36,859 nucleotides of DNA from a virus, in IMG/VR virus record IMGVR_UViG_3300009786_002507, positions 1 to 36,859 of that record. One strand, written 5' to 3'. Of this stretch, positions 9,984-24,997 are shown piece after piece. The notes beneath the pieces were generated by a model. The model made no database searches. It was not told where the DNA came from and worked only from the letters and a program-made list of their open reading frames with translations. Numbering within the stretch: the stretch's first letter is position 1; each line of letters opens with the position of its first letter. Both the position numbers and the translations under genes were made by a program.

Positions 9984-10533
9984 TTTTTATATATATTTTG
10001 ATAATCAGAAACAAATTGTATCCGTCTCTGGCAGAAAAGATCCAACCTCACCTTATCGTTATACAGTTTTTTCTAGAGAAGATGCTATTGGTTTTATGGA
10101 TGGAAGTATGAGAACTTCCGAATATCAAATTGTAGAAAATCGAAAAACAGGAAAGATTGCAATAGAAAAAAAGAAAACTAGTGTAATTTCTATACAAACG
10201 CTTGATGATAAATTATACAAAATTGAACCATTGACAACAGGCCAGTTTGATGTTAAAATTATACATAAGAATAATTCTTTGCATTTTAAATTAAATGCAG
10301 AAAAGAGAGAAAATCTGTTAGGCGATGCATCTGATATAACAATCAATGGAGTAAATACATTAGAATTTTTTATTACTTCAAAAGATGATCCACATTTTTT
10401 AAAGAAGCATATTAGTATCAATGTTGCAGATTTTATTAAACAAGATATTAAAGTTGAGTACGAACAAGATCTAGATATTAGTATCTATACAAAAAGAGTT
10501 TATGAGGACTATTGCTATGAAGATAGAAGATAA
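9976..10533 (+). CDS. Hypothetical protein
   Basis: Predicted protein of 185 residues. ATGs exist at 9967 and 9976. The GGAG at 9962-9965 is too close to the first and correctly spaced for the second, so MADFYIYFDNQ is taken as the start. The sequence alternates beta-strands and charged loops (YIYFDNQKQIVSVSGRKD, YQIVENRKTGKIAIEKKK), with no transmembrane segment, signal peptide or cysteine cluster. It overlaps the glycosyltransferase-like gene before it and the ureohydrolase after it by 17 bases. I do not recognise it. Its place in the operon suggests an accessory or substrate role in the same process. Confidence 0.6.
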   Translation: MADFYIYFDNQKQIVSVSGRKDPTSPYRYTVFSREDAIGFMDGSMRTSEYQIVENRKTGKIAIEKKKTSVISIQTLDDKLYKIEPLTTGQFDVKIIHKNNSLHFKLNAEKRENLLGDASDITINGVNTLEFFITSKDDPHFLKKHISINVADFIKQDIKVEYEQDLDISIYTKRVYEDYCYEDRR

Positions 10534-11470
10534 AATTTCGCAACCAAGATTTCTTGATATTGCTACATTTATGCGAGCGCCGTATAAAGACGACTACAAC
10601 GATGTCGACATTGGTCTAGTAGGTATACCATATGACGGCGCCGTTACAAACCGACCAGGTGCTAGACACGGGCCAAGGGCCGTTAGAGATGCATCATCAT
10701 TGATGCGTATGGTTAATACAACTACCGGTGTTAATCCATTTAACGATTTACGAATTTATGATATTGGAGACGTATGGCCTGACAAGCCATTTGATATCGA
10801 AGAAGCATTAAATATAATGTCCAAAAAATTTACAGAAATTCATCACTCGGGCATTATTCCAGTATCGTGCGGTGGCGATCATAGTGTTTCGTTGCCAGTA
10901 TTACGGGGCATTGCTAGTCATAGACCAGTTGGTATGGTACACATTGATGCACATTGTGATACAAGCGAAGGCCATTTAGGAAGCAAATTTCATCACGGTG
11001 CACCTTTTAGTAATGCAGTTAATGAAGGGCTACTCGATCCAAAACGCTGTATACAAATTGGTATACGCGGCGCTCTTAATGACCCTGACTTATGGAAGTT
11101 TAGTTATGACGTTGGTATGCGAGTTATAACTATGGATGAATTTGAGGAGAAAGGATTAGATTATGTTAAATATGAGATAGACAGAGTAATTGGTACTGGT
11201 CCAACATATGTAACATTCGATGTTGACGGATTAGATCCTGTTTATGCTCCGGGTACTGGAACACCAGAAATAGGTGGACTAACTACACGCGAAGCGTTAA
11301 ATATAATTAGACACCTAAGCGGAAAGAATTTAATAGGTGGCGATGTTGTTGAAGTTTCTCCACCATGGGATCAAACCGGTAACACAGCAATGGTTGGAGC
11401 AACATTTATGTATGAGATATTATGTGTTATCGCGCAAGGATTACAAAATGGCACAACAAAGTCTAAATGA
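10517..11470 (+). CDS. Agmatinase/arginase-family ureohydrolase
   Basis: Predicted protein of 317 residues, the usual length for agmatinases. All six manganese ligands of the family are present: H122 in GGDHS, D144, H146 and D148 in DAHCD, D235 and D237 in DVDGLDP. FHHGAPFSNAV, YAPGTGTPEIGGLT and GGDVVEVSPP are also family blocks. The enzyme should hydrolyse a guanidino group to an amine plus urea: agmatine to putrescine, or arginine-type substrates. The ATG at 10517 is preferred over 10502 because GAGG lies nine bases upstream. It is unusual between glycosyltransferase-like and radical SAM genes. Some RiPP clusters use a family member as a peptide arginase (arginine to ornithine), so a macromolecular substrate is possible. 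Free-agmatine hydrolysis remains the simplest reading. Confidence 0.9.
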   Translation: MKIEDKISQPRFLDIATFMRAPYKDDYNDVDIGLVGIPYDGAVTNRPGARHGPRAVRDASSLMRMVNTTTGVNPFNDLRIYDIGDVWPDKPFDIEEALNIMSKKFTEIHHSGIIPVSCGGDHSVSLPVLRGIASHRPVGMVHIDAHCDTSEGHLGSKFHHGAPFSNAVNEGLLDPKRCIQIGIRGALNDPDLWKFSYDVGMRVITMDEFEEKGLDYVKYEIDRVIGTGPTYVTFDVDGLDPVYAPGTGTPEIGGLTTREALNIIRHLSGKNLIGGDVVEVSPPWDQTGNTAMVGATFMYEILCVIAQGLQNGTTKSK

Positions 11471-12362
11471 ATTTGATGTTTTTTATATTAGTTTTGATGA
11501 ACCTAATGCTGAAAAAAACTATGCAGATCTAGTTAATAAAATTCCGTGGGCGCGACGCACACACGGAGTTAAAGGATTTGATAGTGCTCACAAGGCGTGT
11601 GCAAAGGCAAGTAAAACAGATAGATTTATTACTATAGACGGCGACAATATTGTTAACGAAAAGTTTTGGGATCAAACATTAGAAATAGATCCTGATTTAC
11701 ACAAAAAAGCAATTTGGAGTTGGAGTAGTGAAAATATTATTAATGGTCTAGTGTATGGTAATGGAGGAATAAAACTTTGGCCGAAAGCACCAACACTAGT
11801 AATGAAAACACATGAGAATGCAGAAGCAGAAACATCTGCTATTGATTTTTGTTGGGATTTAGATTATAAACAAATGAATGATATCTACTCAACAAATTAT
11901 CCCAACGGCAGTCCGTATCAAGCATTTAGAGCAGGCTTCCGCGAAGGTGTTAAAATGTCACTAGCAGAAGGAAAAAAAGTAAAGCCAGAGCCGGGTGCGT
12001 TTGAAAGAATGATTTGGCATAAAAATTATACACGATTACTTATATGGTGTTGTATTGGAGCAGATGTAAAAAATGGTAACTGGGCAATATACGGAACAAG
12101 GCTTGGTTGCAAACTTACTAATTTAGATACAACATTTGATATACATAATGTTCGAGATTATGAATGGTTTAAAAAATACTTTGATGAAGAAATAGAACCA
12201 AACATTAATGAAGATAATATTAATGAAAAAATTATTGAGGTTGGTAATATATTAAGAAACGATATTGGAATGCAATTAGGCGAAATTAATGCTGATGCAA
12301 GTAAGTTTTTTAAACGTGTTTATATTAATCCTCCACGAGTAGAAGGATTGTTAGTGCGATGA
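11448..12362 (+). CDS. Glycosyltransferase-like protein, paralogue of the gene at 13711
   Basis: Predicted protein of 304 residues. The frame is open much further upstream inside the ureohydrolase, but AAGGA seven bases before the ATG at 11448 (MAQQSLNEFDVFY) fixes the start. FITIDGDNIVN at about 60-70 is a DxD-like motif (D64, D66). It shares blocks in order with the gene at 13711: IPWARR/FPWAKR, KGFDSAHKACAKA/KGIFNGHKECARQA, SENIINGLVYGNGGIKLWP/CENPINGLVYGYGGVKLFP, and a FRAGFREG/YKSGFREC block. The pair brackets a radical SAM gene. A GT-A-type nucleotide-sugar fold is likely but not proven; substrate unknown. Confidence 0.6.
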   Translation: MAQQSLNEFDVFYISFDEPNAEKNYADLVNKIPWARRTHGVKGFDSAHKACAKASKTDRFITIDGDNIVNEKFWDQTLEIDPDLHKKAIWSWSSENIINGLVYGNGGIKLWPKAPTLVMKTHENAEAETSAIDFCWDLDYKQMNDIYSTNYPNGSPYQAFRAGFREGVKMSLAEGKKVKPEPGAFERMIWHKNYTRLLIWCCIGADVKNGNWAIYGTRLGCKLTNLDTTFDIHNVRDYEWFKKYFDEEIEPNINEDNINEKIIEVGNILRNDIGMQLGEINADASKFFKRVYINPPRVEGLLVR

Positions 12363-13717
12363 CAACTGAAGAAGTAAGAGAAAAACTTAATTCGGTTAGC
12401 AATAGTTTTTGCTTAGCCAAATGGTATCAAGTTACAGTACATTTACAAAATGGACATACACATAGTTGCCATCATCCTGGAACACATAAAATACCATTGG
12501 AAGAATTAAAAACTAATCCATCAGCATTACATAATACAAACTTTAAAAAAGAACGTAGAAGAGAAATGCTTGATGGTAAACGCCCGGAAGAATGTGGATA
12601 TTGTTGGAATATTGAAGACAGCGATGGCGACCATTTTAGTGATCGCCATTTTAAAAGTGAAGCAGATTGGGCAATGCCTGGATTTGATGATGCCGTAAAC
12701 AAACCTTGGGATTACGATCACTATCCAAGGTATATGGAAATTAGTTTTGGAAATGTTTGTAACTTTAAATGCATGTATTGTTATCCTAATATTAGTAGTC
12801 AATGGATGGAAGAATCCGAAACATATGGGCCTTATCCTACTTCATTAAAGTTTGGTAATTTAGAACATCTCGATGTCAAGGGTACTCGACCAATTCCAGA
12901 ACGAGAGCATAATCCTTACGTTGAAGCATTTTGGAAATGGTGGCCTGACTTATATCAAAATTTACATACTTTTCGAATTACAGGTGGCGAACCATTATTA
13001 AACAAAAATACATTTAAAGTTTTAAAAGAAATTAATAACAACCCGCGGCGCGATTTAGAATTAGCAATTAATTCAAACCTGTGTGTTCCAGATAAAAATT
13101 TTAATGAATATATTAACCTTATAAAACAAACCTGTGAAAAACTCGATGACGTAAGATTATATACAAGTTTAGAGGCCGTTGGATCTAAAGCAGAATATAT
13201 ACGATTTGGATTAAACTATAATAAATTTTGGAGCAATATTGATAGGCTTTTACATGAAATTCCTAAACTTAAAATTACATTTATGTGTACATATAATGCA
13301 TTAAGCGTCACAAGTTTTACTGATTTTTTAAAGGAAGTAGACCGACGTCGATTTGAATTACCATGGGAAGACGGATTTCCTCAACTTCAAATTAGTACGC
13401 CATATTTGCGCCATCCTGAATTTTTAAGTATTAAAACTTTGGATAATTCGTTTAGAAGCAAAATCGAGGAAAGTATTAACTATATGGAAGAAAATGCAGG
13501 CGCCCGAGGCGCACCTGGATTTACAGCATTTGAGCGAAGCGGATTTAAACGAATCTTAAGTTGGTTTGATAGATCAACACCAACAGAAGTATTAAGAGTA
13601 CAAAGGATGGATTTTGTAAAATACTTTGACGAATACGATAAAAGAAAAGGAACTAATTTCTTAAAAACATTTCCTGAATATACAGAGTTTTATAATATGT
13701 GCAAAAAATTATGTTAG
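12359..13717 (+). CDS. Radical SAM protein with N-terminal Cys-rich (twitch-like) domain
   Basis: Predicted protein of 452 residues. The radical SAM cluster motif CNFKCMYC is at C134, C138 and C141, preceded by ISFGNV, and the GGEP motif is in FRITGGEPLLN. The N-terminal region carries FCLAKWYQVTVHLQNG, SCHHPG and PEECGYCWNIEDSDGD, the layout of the twitch-type auxiliary domain at the front of this family, although the usual paired CC is SCHH here. The C-terminus ends like other members (KYFDEYDKRKGTNFLKTFPEY). The enzyme should reductively cleave SAM to make a 5'-deoxyadenosyl radical; the substrate is unknown. It starts in an ATGA overlap and is bracketed by two paralogous glycosyltransferase-like genes, which suggests a shared substrate. 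Confidence 0.85.
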   Translation: MTTEEVREKLNSVSNSFCLAKWYQVTVHLQNGHTHSCHHPGTHKIPLEELKTNPSALHNTNFKKERRREMLDGKRPEECGYCWNIEDSDGDHFSDRHFKSEADWAMPGFDDAVNKPWDYDHYPRYMEISFGNVCNFKCMYCYPNISSQWMEESETYGPYPTSLKFGNLEHLDVKGTRPIPEREHNPYVEAFWKWWPDLYQNLHTFRITGGEPLLNKNTFKVLKEINNNPRRDLELAINSNLCVPDKNFNEYINLIKQTCEKLDDVRLYTSLEAVGSKAEYIRFGLNYNKFWSNIDRLLHEIPKLKITFMCTYNALSVTSFTDFLKEVDRRRFELPWEDGFPQLQISTPYLRHPEFLSIKTLDNSFRSKIEESINYMEENAGARGAPGFTAFERSGFKRILSWFDRSTPTEVLRVQRMDFVKYFDEYDKRKGTNFLKTFPEYTEFYNMCKKLC

Positions 13718-14454
13718 ATATTTTTCATTTAAGTTATTACGAACCATTTGCCAACGAGACATTTAAAAAACTACAAGAAAGATTTCCGTGGGCAAAGCGT
13801 GTACAAAATATTAAAGGTATTTTTAATGGACATAAAGAGTGTGCTAGGCAAGCATTAACAACAATGTTTTATGTTGTCGATGCCGACGCAATACTTAAAG
13901 ATGATTTTGACTTTTCATATCGTCCTAGTCCAAAGTTAGAATATTGGGATGGTGTAAAACAAACGGAATGCGTACACGTTTGGCGTTGTGAGAATCCAAT
14001 TAATGGATTAGTATATGGATACGGCGGAGTAAAATTATTTCCACGTGGGCCATTACGTGCCGCAATAGACTGGCATATTGATTTTACTACTAGTGTATCA
14101 GGTAAGTTTAAAGCGATGCCCGAAACTAGTAATTCAACATACATAAATGCTGATGCTTTCACAGCATATAAAAGCGGATTTAGAGAGTGTGCAAAGTTAG
14201 CATCTAAGACAATTAAAGATCCAGAAGGTTATTATGATAGTGCTAATGACCCTAAGGTATTAGAGCATTTAGAAATTTGGTGTACTAAAGGCGAAGGACC
14301 ATTTGGTGCTTGGGCGGTACTAGGCGCAAAAGACGGAAGGAAACACGGAGAGAAAAGTCAAGGAGACACTGAGGCATTAGATAAAATTAATGACTTTAAA
14401 TGGTTAGAAGAAAAATTTAATATGAGGAACGAAGAAGCAAATGCATACACATGA
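13711..14454 (+). CDS. Glycosyltransferase-like protein, paralogue of the gene at 11448
   Basis: Predicted protein of 247 residues from ATG 13711 (MLDIFHLSYYEPF); a GTG at 13699 would add four residues. It overlaps the end of the radical SAM gene by seven bases. FYVVDADAILK at about 53-63 gives the DxD motif (D57, D59). INGLVYGYGGVKLFPRGP and YKSGFRECAKLA are shared with the gene at 11448, showing duplication followed by insertion or retention of a radical SAM gene between the copies. It is shorter than its paralogue at the C-terminus. Probable nucleotide-sugar transferase fold; the acceptor is unknown. Confidence 0.6.
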   Translation: MLDIFHLSYYEPFANETFKKLQERFPWAKRVQNIKGIFNGHKECARQALTTMFYVVDADAILKDDFDFSYRPSPKLEYWDGVKQTECVHVWRCENPINGLVYGYGGVKLFPRGPLRAAIDWHIDFTTSVSGKFKAMPETSNSTYINADAFTAYKSGFRECAKLASKTIKDPEGYYDSANDPKVLEHLEIWCTKGEGPFGAWAVLGAKDGRKHGEKSQGDTEALDKINDFKWLEEKFNMRNEEANAYT

Positions 14455-15823
14455 ACTATTAGACAGATTTGAATTATTATATGCAGACAAGGAACCTGTA
14501 TTAGCAGACTTACGCCGGGCAACTCTTGATGACGATTTAAGTAGTATTTTTAGAGTTGCTGATGCTATTGCAATACAACATGAAAATATTGACGACTTTC
14601 GTAAAGCAGTTATGGAAAAGAATTTACATTCTGTATTTCGTGTGTTTAATATTTTTGACCAAACTGCTTCGGAAGAAGATTCTCACATTGAAAATTTTAG
14701 AAAAGCAATTACAGAAAAAAATCATCGAGCAATATTTCGTGTTTTTACACAATGCGGTATTACTAACGAACTAACTGATTTGCGTAAAGCAAAGATTGAA
14801 AAACTTGCAGAAATCGAAGACATACGTAAAACTATTCTTGAAGACAATTTACATTCGTTATTTAGATTACTTGAACATTACGAAATGGATGTTCCTTTAG
14901 AAGATTTACGCAAAGCAATTGTTGAAGACAATTTACATTCTATATTTCGTGTAATTGAAATGTATCAAGAAAAGGAATTAATTCCACTATCAGTGCCACT
15001 TGAGGATTTGCGTAAATCAATTACAGAAGAAAATATACATTCTATATTTAGAGTACTACCTCGAATTGATCCAGAAAATAGAACATTACCGTTAATAAGA
15101 AAATTTGTTATTAACAAAGGTGAAGACGCCGACGCACATATTAGATTAAAAAACACGTTTGACGTAATTGGACTATTTGTTGACTCCGTATTATTGGATA
15201 CATTACGTAGAGTAATTAATACATTTCCGGATGCAAACATTCAAGATGCTTACTCTCGTGGACAAATTTTAAGTAAGAAATGGCTTATAAAAGAATTAGA
15301 AAACTTACCAGTAGACTTGGGTACTGTTTTTCTATGTGCTGGATGGTACGGAACGTTATCGTTAATGCTTTTTGAAGCAGGTATGAAAATTACAAAAATA
15401 AGATCGTTTGATATTGATGACGAGGTGTGGCCGATTGCTGAAACTATTAATCGGCCGATGGTAATGAGCGACTGGCAATTTAAAGCACAAACAGAAGATA
15501 TTCATAATATTAATTATAAAGACGGCCACACGTATGATACATATAGACGAGACGGCAAGGCAAGAGAATTATATGACAAACCTGATACAGTTATTAATAC
15601 CAGTTGTGAACATATAGAAAACTTTAGCGAATGGTATAACAAAATTAGTAAAGGTACATTAGTTATTTTACAAACTAATAATTACTATGAAATCGATGAC
15701 CATGTAAACTGTGTTGACAACATTGAGCAATTTAAAGAAATGGCACCGATGACCGATTGTATGTATGATGGTATATTAAACTTAGATAAGTATAATAGAT
15801 TTATGTTAATTGGATATCGTTGA
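14441..15823 (+). CDS. Tandem-repeat protein fused to a class I SAM methyltransferase domain
   Basis: Predicted protein of 460 residues with two parts. Residues about 20-206 contain six copies of a 16-residue unit near consensus LRKAIxEDNLHSIFRV, beginning at 24, 53, 86, 128, 156 and 190, with a half copy at 114 (LRKAKIEKL). Residues about 265-460 look like a class I methyltransferase: a glycine-type loop FLCAGWYGTLSLMLFEAG at 297-314, an acidic strand end SFDIDDEVW at 322-330, VMSDW near 341-345 and VINTSCEHIENFSEW near 384-398. The repeats have no cysteine in the core and are probably helical. They could be a docking scaffold or a substrate array. The gene overlaps the previous one by 14 bases, and the TGATG at its end couples to the next. 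Confidence 0.75.
   Translation: MHTHELLDRFELLYADKEPVLADLRRATLDDDLSSIFRVADAIAIQHENIDDFRKAVMEKNLHSVFRVFNIFDQTASEEDSHIENFRKAITEKNHRAIFRVFTQCGITNELTDLRKAKIEKLAEIEDIRKTILEDNLHSLFRLLEHYEMDVPLEDLRKAIVEDNLHSIFRVIEMYQEKELIPLSVPLEDLRKSITEENIHSIFRVLPRIDPENRTLPLIRKFVINKGEDADAHIRLKNTFDVIGLFVDSVLLDTLRRVINTFPDANIQDAYSRGQILSKKWLIKELENLPVDLGTVFLCAGWYGTLSLMLFEAGMKITKIRSFDIDDEVWPIAETINRPMVMSDWQFKAQTEDIHNINYKDGHTYDTYRRDGKARELYDKPDTVINTSCEHIENFSEWYNKISKGTLVILQTNNYYEIDDHVNCVDNIEQFKEMAPMTDCMYDGILNLDKYNRFMLIGYR
14510..15055 (+). repeat. Six in-frame repeats encoding LRKAIxEDNLHSIFRV
   Basis: Six protein-level repeats with period 28-42 residues plus one half unit. The DNA copies differ widely at third codon positions, so the duplication is old and the protein motif has been kept by selection. 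Most conserved positions: R, K, E/D, N, L/I-H-S, I/V-F-R-V. Confidence 0.85.
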
Positions 15824-16188: not shown

Positions 16189-17280
16189 ATGTATACGTAT
16201 GATGAAATTAATACAGTTCATTTAGAAATTACACAACGTTGCCAAGCGGCATGTCCTATGTGCGATCGCAATATGAATGGCGGAAATGATAACCCGCATA
16301 TGACTGATGCTGAACTTAGTTTAGAAGATTGTAAAAAGATTTTTAGTGTTCCGTTTATTAAACAATTAAAAACAATGTATATGTGCGGCAACCTAGGAGA
16401 TCCAATTGTTGCTAAAGATACGTTAGAAGTATTTGAATATTTTAGAGAACACAATCCTAAAATGTGGTTGAGCATGAATACAAATGCCGGAGCACAAAAA
16501 GAAGAATGGTGGCAACGTCTTGCTAAAATATATGGACGCATGGGCACAGTTATTTTTAGTGTTGATGGATTAGAAGATACAAATCATTTATATAGACAAA
16601 ATGTAAATTGGGAAATAGTCGAACACAGTATGCGATCATTTATTAATGCTGGCGGTAGAGCACGTTGGGATTTCTTAATCTTTGAACACAACCAACATCA
16701 AGTAGAACAAGCAGAAGCATTTGCAAATGAAATTGGTTTTGAGAAATTTACTAAAAAGAAGTCCGGCCGTTTTATTAGCAGTATGACAAATAAAGCAAAA
16801 CAAGAACACCAAGCAGTAAATCGCAAAGGCGAGGAAACACAAACCTTAACAAAACCAACAGAAGAAAAATATACAAATAGAGCATTAGCAAAACAAGAAC
16901 AACTAGTTAAACAATACGGTAGTATGATGGACTACTATAACGACGCAAAAATCTCTTGCAAAGTAGCAACCAAAGAAGAAAAAAGTATTTTTATAACTGC
17001 TGAAGGATTACTTATGCCTTGTTGTTGGACTGCTGGACGTATGTATAAGTGGTGGCATAAGGATTATAAAGTTGAACAAGTTTGGGATTTTATTGACCGT
17101 GCCGGAGGAAAAGAAGGTATTAACGTAATTAATAATCGTTTAGAAGATGTTACACACGGCGGCCTATTACAAGATATAGAAGGCAGTTGGTCGTTAAATA
17201 GTATAGAGGAAGGCAAGTTTGGTGTCTGTGCGGCGAAATGTGGTACAGAGTTTGACCCATTTGCTAGCCAATTTGAATAA
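16189..17280 (+). CDS. Radical SAM protein with SPASM-like C-terminus
   Basis: Predicted protein of 363 residues. CQAACPMC at C18, C22 and C25 binds the radical SAM cluster. YMCGNLGDPIV (about 64-74) replaces GGEP with GDP, as in SPASM enzymes such as those that mature peptides. C-terminal cysteines C257, C278, C279, C347 and C351 form an auxiliary-cluster pattern (C-x20-CC ... C-x3-C). It shares FSVDGLEDTNHLYRQNVNW and INAGG with the minus-strand gene at 33538-34605, so the two are paralogues. The ATG has GGGA eight bases upstream. Likely acts on a protein, peptide or carbohydrate; the exact reaction is unknown. Confidence 0.88.
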   Translation: MYTYDEINTVHLEITQRCQAACPMCDRNMNGGNDNPHMTDAELSLEDCKKIFSVPFIKQLKTMYMCGNLGDPIVAKDTLEVFEYFREHNPKMWLSMNTNAGAQKEEWWQRLAKIYGRMGTVIFSVDGLEDTNHLYRQNVNWEIVEHSMRSFINAGGRARWDFLIFEHNQHQVEQAEAFANEIGFEKFTKKKSGRFISSMTNKAKQEHQAVNRKGEETQTLTKPTEEKYTNRALAKQEQLVKQYGSMMDYYNDAKISCKVATKEEKSIFITAEGLLMPCCWTAGRMYKWWHKDYKVEQVWDFIDRAGGKEGINVINNRLEDVTHGGLLQDIEGSWSLNSIEEGKFGVCAAKCGTEFDPFASQFE

Positions 17281-23599: not shown

Positions 23600-24997
23600 A
23601 TGAGTAAACACCCTTCAGAAACATTCTGTATTCTACCATGGATGCATTTAAGTACACGCCCAAACGGCCATATGCGTGTATGTTGTACGGCCAATGCATC
23701 AAGTGTAGGAGCCACCAACGACAAAGAATTTGGAGGCGAAGTCGGTATACTTAAAGGTGCTGACGGTAAACCTGCTAATCTTAATACAAGTGATTTCCTT
23801 AGTAGTTGGAATAATGACTACATGAAAAATACTAGACTGCAAATGCTTAACGGCGAGAAGCCGCCTTCGTGTCTAAAATGTTATAAGGAAGAAGATGCAG
23901 GACATAATAGTAAACGCATGTGGGAAACTGCATATTGGGAGAAACGAGTAGACTTAGATACACTACTTGCAGAAACAAATGAAGATGGTAGCACACCTCC
24001 AAAGATACGTTACATTGATATGCGTTTTGGTACAAAGTGTAATCTTAAATGTGTAATGTGTTCGCCACATGATAGTTCATTATGGGTGACGGATCATCAA
24101 GCATTGTATCCAACAATTGAAAATAAAAATTTAAAACAAACAATGGAATGGAATAACAAAGGCCGGCAAAATGATGCAACATACAATTGGCATAAAGACA
24201 ATCCTGTATTTTGGGATCAATTATACGAACAAATTCCTCATATGAAACAACTGTACTTTGCAGGCGGCGAGCCATTAATTATTGACGAACATTATGAATT
24301 GCTTGAGCGTGTTATAGAAATGGGCTATGCAGATCAAATGGAAATACGTTACAATAGCAATGGTGTCGAATGGCGAGATGATTTGTTTGACTTATGGAAG
24401 CATTTTAAATTAGTACGGTTTCATTATAGTGTAGATGATATTGGCGATCGTAATGACTATATACGTTACCCAAGCGAATGGGCTCGCAATGAAGAAGTAT
24501 TTCGTATATTAGATGAACAAACCGGTGACAATACCGAAGTTACAATTGCATGTGCTGTCCAAGCATTAAACATTTTTTATATTCCAGATTTCCTAAAATG
24601 GAAACTTAACTTTGGCTTTAAGAAAATAAACATGTGGCCGTTCGGTGCTGGAGGCATTAACTATCATTTTGTTTATCATCCGCCTCACCTTAATGTTAAA
24701 ATCTTACCTGCATGGTTTAAAGATGAACTTGAACGCAAGTATGAAGATTTTATTCCATGGTGGGAAGAAAATTGGGAGAAGGGTGTTCCGTCTTGGCACA
24801 AAGGAAAAGTAACTGTTGATGACTGGCGCAGTGCAAGTTATGGCATCAGTCGCTTACGTGGCATGGTTAATTTTGCAAAGTCAGAAGACTGGTCTCAGCG
24901 TTTGCCAGAGTTCCAAGAATATATTACTAAGTTAGATCAATTACGTGGCACTGACTTCCGTAAAACGTTTCCTGAGATGTCTAAATTGTTAGATTAA
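23600..24997 (+). CDS. Radical SAM protein with N-terminal twitch domain
   Basis: Predicted protein of 465 residues and one of the best preserved members. FCILPWMHLSTRPNG (C10), RVCCTA (C28, C29) and SCLKCYKEED (C91, C94) form the twitch region. CNLKCVMC (C147, C151, C154) is the radical SAM motif, then FAGGEPLIIDEHYELLE and HYSVDDIGDRNDYIRYP. The C-terminal helix LDQLRGTDFRKTFPEM is shared by several copies here. It forms a single-gene cassette with its own leaderless promoter, and its end overlaps the convergent minus-strand gene by 17 bases. Substrate unknown. Confidence 0.9.
   Translation: MSKHPSETFCILPWMHLSTRPNGHMRVCCTANASSVGATNDKEFGGEVGILKGADGKPANLNTSDFLSSWNNDYMKNTRLQMLNGEKPPSCLKCYKEEDAGHNSKRMWETAYWEKRVDLDTLLAETNEDGSTPPKIRYIDMRFGTKCNLKCVMCSPHDSSLWVTDHQALYPTIENKNLKQTMEWNNKGRQNDATYNWHKDNPVFWDQLYEQIPHMKQLYFAGGEPLIIDEHYELLERVIEMGYADQMEIRYNSNGVEWRDDLFDLWKHFKLVRFHYSVDDIGDRNDYIRYPSEWARNEEVFRILDEQTGDNTEVTIACAVQALNIFYIPDFLKWKLNFGFKKINMWPFGAGGINYHFVYHPPHLNVKILPAWFKDELERKYEDFIPWWEENWEKGVPSWHKGKVTVDDWRSASYGISRLRGMVNFAKSEDWSQRLPEFQEYITKLDQLRGTDFRKTFPEMSKLLD

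Follow-up and report, generated by a model that had tools for sequence, protein, structure and literature searches.

The window analysed here, that is, the whole 36.9 kb (36,859 nucleotides) fragment of an uncultured virus, carries on its plus strand a gene with an ATG start (REPMT, 14441..15823) that encodes 460 aa. In this protein a repeat with six full units and a half unit spans aa 21-205, and a connecting stretch leads from it to a class I methyltransferase domain at about aa 269-460 (15245..15820, plus strand), which bears the motifs SRGQxxSKxW, CAGWYG, SFDID and NTSCEH. The units, all on the plus strand, are unit 1, LADLRRATLDDDLSSIFRV (aa 21-39, 14501..14557), which is of N-cap type with D at position 12 and S at position 14; units 2, IDDFRKAVMEKNLHSVFRV (aa 50-68, 14588..14644), and 3, IENFRKAITEKNHRAIFRV (aa 83-101, 14687..14743), both of inner type; the half unit, LTDLRKAKIEKLAE (aa 111-124, 14771..14812); unit 4, IEDIRKTILEDNLHSLFRL (aa 125-143, 14813..14869); unit 5, LEDLRKAIVEDNLHSIFRV (aa 153-171, 14897..14953); and unit 6, LEDLRKSITEENIHSIFRV (aa 187-205, 14999..15055), the last full one. 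The half unit is a deletion remnant that has lost 13 residues in frame, its counterpart being intact in two relatives (L031 and L064), and in comparison with L031 the window array also lacks further complete units.

The repeat array, described in an earlier note on this DNA as tandem units of 16 residues, is confirmed. A loose unit pattern has six matches in aa 1-230, whereas 10,000 shuffles average 0.003 matches and never give more than 1. The six units and the half unit ahead of the methyltransferase hold, but the conserved core spans 19 residues rather than 16, and the unit starts are spaced by 20-34 aa, which is not a strictly tandem order. The consensus of 400 units, E-D-L-R(95%)-K-A-V-x-E-x-N(86%)-L-H-S-[IL]-F(89%)-R(89%)-L, has conserved Arg, Asn, His and Phe. 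In the methyltransferase domain, AGWYG (SAM motif I) and FDID (acidic motif II) are conserved, and the class I SAM-dependent fold is evident from VIA-align Z-scores of 14-15.5 to NodS, NTMT1 and ChlM over 160-177 residues.

Distribution of the repeat and change in array length

When viral contigs were scanned with unique stretches taken from the whole protein, no relatives appeared. The repeat stretch, used as the query, recovered 28 viral loci, and alignment searches gave at least 560 viral matches as well as six from assemblies of bacterial genomes. No array was found in isolated phages among the phage records searched. The unit is confined to this methyltransferase protein among 192 sources (the loci plus the window), the exceptions being pieces truncated by a stop or at the end of a contig, and a few weak matches at chance level. 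At one locus (L043:1411-2487) an in-frame stop, or an assembly error, breaks the array gene after the first unit.

Unit counts per protein range from 0 to 14 across 120 distinct methyltransferase domains, and the most frequent count in array-bearing forms is 5; units were counted with a 19-residue profile because a 23-residue profile under-counted them. Array-less forms occur in viruses and on Bdellovibrionota chromosomes (L112 and L113), and single-unit forms have one hairpin that shares the D-L-R-[KR] and R18 residues. The simplest origin of the array is tandem multiplication of the lone N-terminal hairpin found in some members of the family. On the methyltransferase tree the array label requires 11 changes, at least 7 of which are forced by well supported branches, and several clades have long arrays of 8-14 units.

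The units of the window differ from one another at 46% of third codon positions versus 27% of first and second positions (pooled pS 0.54, pN 0.28). The differences among paralogous units thus fall mainly at synonymous sites, and the earlier claim of strong protein-level selection is right. Between relatives, pN/pS is 0.08-0.37 in the aligned array and 0.06-0.31 in the methyltransferase, and the number of gap columns is 0-140 in the array versus 0 in the methyltransferase. The sequence of the array is kept while its length is free. The methyltransferases of L010 (6236-7717) and L064 (10001-11752) are 98% identical, yet the two proteins have 8 and 11 units, respectively, and some of these units are unlike, which suggests recombination within arrays. 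Such differences in count between close relatives, together with the repeated gain and loss of arrays, are what would be expected if an easily duplicating hairpin had expanded near-neutrally and the surplus units did little beyond folding. This explanation is improbable, because the aligned residues are under purifying selection like that on the methyltransferase, with pN/pS down to 0.08, and because arrays of 8-14 units are found in several clades.

Capped arrays of predicted hairpins

AlphaFold2 predicts a helix-turn-helix of two short helices for each unit, both in the window protein and in a relative whose GT-A-like and array genes are fused (L015), with moderate confidence in the array (pLDDT about 55-73, lower locally) and high confidence in the methyltransferase. 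The core period of regular arrays is 20-24 residues. A stacked solenoid can be told from a string of independent substrate peptides by end units that differ from inner ones, and here they do. Position 12 is D in 46 of 46 first units and N in none of them, whereas N12 is found in 209 of 211 inner units; E10 is absent from all 46 first units but present in 186 of 211 inner units; and H14 occurs in 1 of 46 versus 163 of 211. These counts lack phylogenetic independence, yet the contrast is almost absolute. R5, N12, F17 and R18 are almost invariant in inner units, and last units drift to W14 (58%), W17 (46%) and P18 (37%) in place of H14, F17 and R18. As is the case in capped solenoids, first, inner and last units each obey separate rules, and an arm of stacked helical hairpins is a well supported prediction.

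The earlier statement that the repeat was not recognised is fair, since no credible match to any Pfam, PHROG or NCBIfam family was found, and in Pfam scans of five array proteins no TPR, ANK, HEAT, ARM or Sel1 profile exceeded its curated cut-off. Weak Pfam matches of the arrays to DUF5517, DUF4197 and Crinkler lie below or barely at the cut-off and differ among relatives, and no stretch passes by itself. Similarly, weak matches to designed armadillo repeats in PDB sequences, whose repeat is about twice as long, were read as repeat composition. The structure-library searches used models of whole proteins, and the VIA-align and Foldseek lists are full of methyltransferases (plus the chondroitin polymerase K4CP), so that a known fold for the array is neither supported nor excluded by them. 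The array is apparently a very short alpha-solenoid repeat that had not been catalogued before.

Neighbouring genes and the proposed role of the arm

The array gene lies among predicted glycosyltransferase and radical SAM genes, all on the plus strand. Upstream are GTA_1 (11337..12362; IDGDN motif; the real start is probably an ATG near 11448), which is GT-A-like, rSAM_a (12359..13717), a radical SAM gene with a twitch domain between the two GT-A genes, and GTA_2 (13699..14454; VDADA motif), also GT-A-like, which runs into the start of the array gene and, in L013, L015 and other relatives, forms a single gene with it. Downstream are the conserved radical SAM neighbour rSAM_b (16189..17280) and rSAM_g (23600..24997), a radical SAM gene with an N-terminal twitch domain and a member of the conserved module. 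In relatives, tail genes come first and are followed by two other proteins with GT-like DxD motifs, then GTA_1, rSAM_a, GTA_2, the array-methyltransferase gene, often a protein of 65-78 aa, rSAM_b and rSAM_g. The upstream genes encode DGDN, DGDA or DADA motifs and give a confident GT-A-like model, and their Pfam GT2 matches fall below the cut-off; the GT-A and glycan assignments are thus predictions from fold and weak family matches. No tRNA and no Rfam element was found in the window. Tail and baseplate-type genes precede the locus, an arrangement like that of the glycosyltransferase-rich host recognition cluster known from pelagimyophages (PMC7029224).

Of the members with at least 5 units, 37 of 38 have a GT-A-like gene that overlaps the array gene or is fused to it, as do 22 of 27 with 2-4 units; associations with GT copies are confounded by phylogeny and unequal flank lengths. 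GT-A genes also adjoin 16 of 20 array-less forms, indicating that the arm is not required. Long fused forms make up 15 of the 120 proteins, and those fully read have the order GT-GT-array-methyltransferase. The model of the fused L015 protein has a Foldseek match to K4CP (E 8e-5). In the Bdellovibrionota (L112 and L113) an array-less methyltransferase stands with a single GT-A gene and with two radical SAM genes, rSAM_b and rSAM_g, which counts against the arm reading favoured below; this chromosomal module (L112:3131-8744 and L113:4458-8609) also comprises a PP-loop ATPase-like protein and membrane proteins.

The window has 13 radical SAM genes within 22 kb (12359-34650), several with N-terminal twitch or SPASM-type domains, and an aspartyl/asparaginyl beta-hydroxylase family protein (PF05118, 34593-35426) adjoins them; 12 radical SAM genes have been reported from one T4-like marine genome (PMC5332604). 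The abundance of such genes, the conserved Arg, Asn, His and Phe, and a copy number that varies as in multi-core precursors are in line with the earlier proposal of a multi-site substrate, in which the cluster's radical SAM, 2OG or ureohydrolase enzymes would modify the units as core peptides. An agmatinase-type ureohydrolase gene does lie at 10502..11470 (plus strand), outside the conserved module, but none of the 68 related loci whose flanks were adequate was found to carry it, and its product passes the equivalog cut-off for agmatinase, a small-molecule enzyme; hence nothing connects it with the array's Arg residues. Moreover, the units are predicted to fold as hairpins, with cap-type first units that lack Asn and His and with altered last units; radical SAM and glycosyltransferase genes are retained beside array-less methyltransferases, the radical SAM neighbours unchanged and in bacteria as well; and no leader-like region or cleavage site was seen on inspection by eye. 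A multi-core RiPP precursor has unstructured cores with modifiers nearby, whereas the units here are predicted to be folded and capped, and the modifying enzymes persist where the array is missing. Taken together, the retained radical SAM genes, the predicted capped fold and the ureohydrolase result make a substrate role very unlikely.

A docking scaffold, the other option raised in the earlier note, is still possible and lies near the reading favoured below. As a docking platform the inner units would show the same Arg/Asn/His face to radical SAM proteins, the 65-78 aa protein, the GT-A enzymes or an acidic ligand, more units holding more partners, and spacing would be secondary. The near invariance of R5, N12, F17 and R18 in inner units and the high constraint on array sequence agree with this. 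The small protein (LTLRQLQTESARALSTMQATNNNIHQFNKQAHHNSQNWY..YGDLPSKVGPGKDVKL), conserved directly after the array-methyltransferase gene in L011-L030 and others, is present in 123 of 192 sources and has no Pfam or PHROG match; its probable TTG start overlaps the methyltransferase stop, and an example lies in L017 from about 8900. It accompanies 38 of 47 array loci versus 5 of 13 viral array-less loci, a difference confounded by phylogeny and flank length. However, the clade of the window (L003-L010) has arrays and no small protein was found downstream of its array genes, so the small protein was dropped as an obligate partner. The persistence of radical SAM neighbours without arrays also speaks against a platform, and the conserved polar residues may serve just hairpin caps and stacking. 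A platform of this kind is plausible, although we consider it doubtful as the main role.

We favour, as the probable explanation, a variable-length arm for spacing or docking between the GT-A and methyltransferase modules of a surface-glycan pathway. In the array, short alpha-helical hairpins would stack into a capped solenoid, an arm of rapidly evolving length, which would hold the methyltransferase apart from the two GT-A-like domains encoded directly upstream, sometimes in the same chain, while probably tethering it to both. These enzymes most likely build and methylate a glycan of the host surface or the virion, and we infer that, between the extension of the glycan and its methylation, the arm serves for spacing, measuring or docking. 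The conservation of charged residues in every inner unit exceeds what a passive spacer would need, which favours a binding role. A phage molecular ruler, in which a solenoid of hairpins of about 22 residues would set glycan length, with the GT-A enzymes extending the chain, the methyltransferase capping it and the number of units tuning its length, is a more speculative and rather unlikely form of the idea; if it is true, phages would remodel host or virion surface glycans by this means.

The array is an enzyme-attached repeat with distinct cap and inner units, and its natural variants of 0-14 copies are a ready test of the effect of arm length on glycosyltransferase-methyltransferase assembly and possibly on glycan chain length. 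It is also an anchor for decoding the big radical SAM/glycosyltransferase islands of uncultured marine T4-like phages.

Comparison with known systems

The putative methyltransferase Mosig_00090 of Pelagibacter phage Mosig EXVC030M is a homologue (24.8% identity) in a region annotated with molybdenum cofactor (MoaA-type) enzymes and tail fibres; it has neither the array nor a GT-A fusion. The fused relatives share with K4CP two tandem GT-A-like domains (Foldseek E 8e-5), but sequence identity is about 10% and the TM-score is low, and K4CP itself has no array or methyltransferase. The array resembles alpha-solenoids (TPR, Sel1, HEAT/ARM and ankyrin) in its tandem helical hairpins, predicted here, its cap and inner repeats and its variable copy number. 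The repeat period of those families is about 33-42 residues, whereas that of the array is 20-24 residues, and the array has no Pfam match.

In layout, the phage protein resembles the WbdD/WbbB rulers of O-antigen length, a family to which it does not belong. In WbdD and its relatives a spacer sets the polymerase apart from the terminator, and a chain must exceed a minimum length before it is capped; the Klebsiella O12 system has its polymerase, coiled-coil spacer and terminator in one polypeptide (PMC11231755, PMC5082667). The phage system is like E. coli O9a WbdD, where the methyltransferase is the terminating enzyme, in combining a methyltransferase with a predicted elongated helical spacer and putative glycosyltransferase modules, and the GT-GT-array-methyltransferase order is like the fused spacer, glycosyltransferase and terminator of the O12 system. 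In contrast to WbdD, the phage spacer is predicted to consist of hairpins broken around N12 rather than a coiled coil or continuous helices, and no kinase domain is seen in the phage protein; no ABC transporter was recognised among the scanned ORFs of the 36.9 kb window. The coiled coils of WbdD-type spacers are described as divergent in sequence and conserved in length (PMC5082667). The array is the reverse, with its sequence kept and its length varying, which argues for a binding role of the arm as well.
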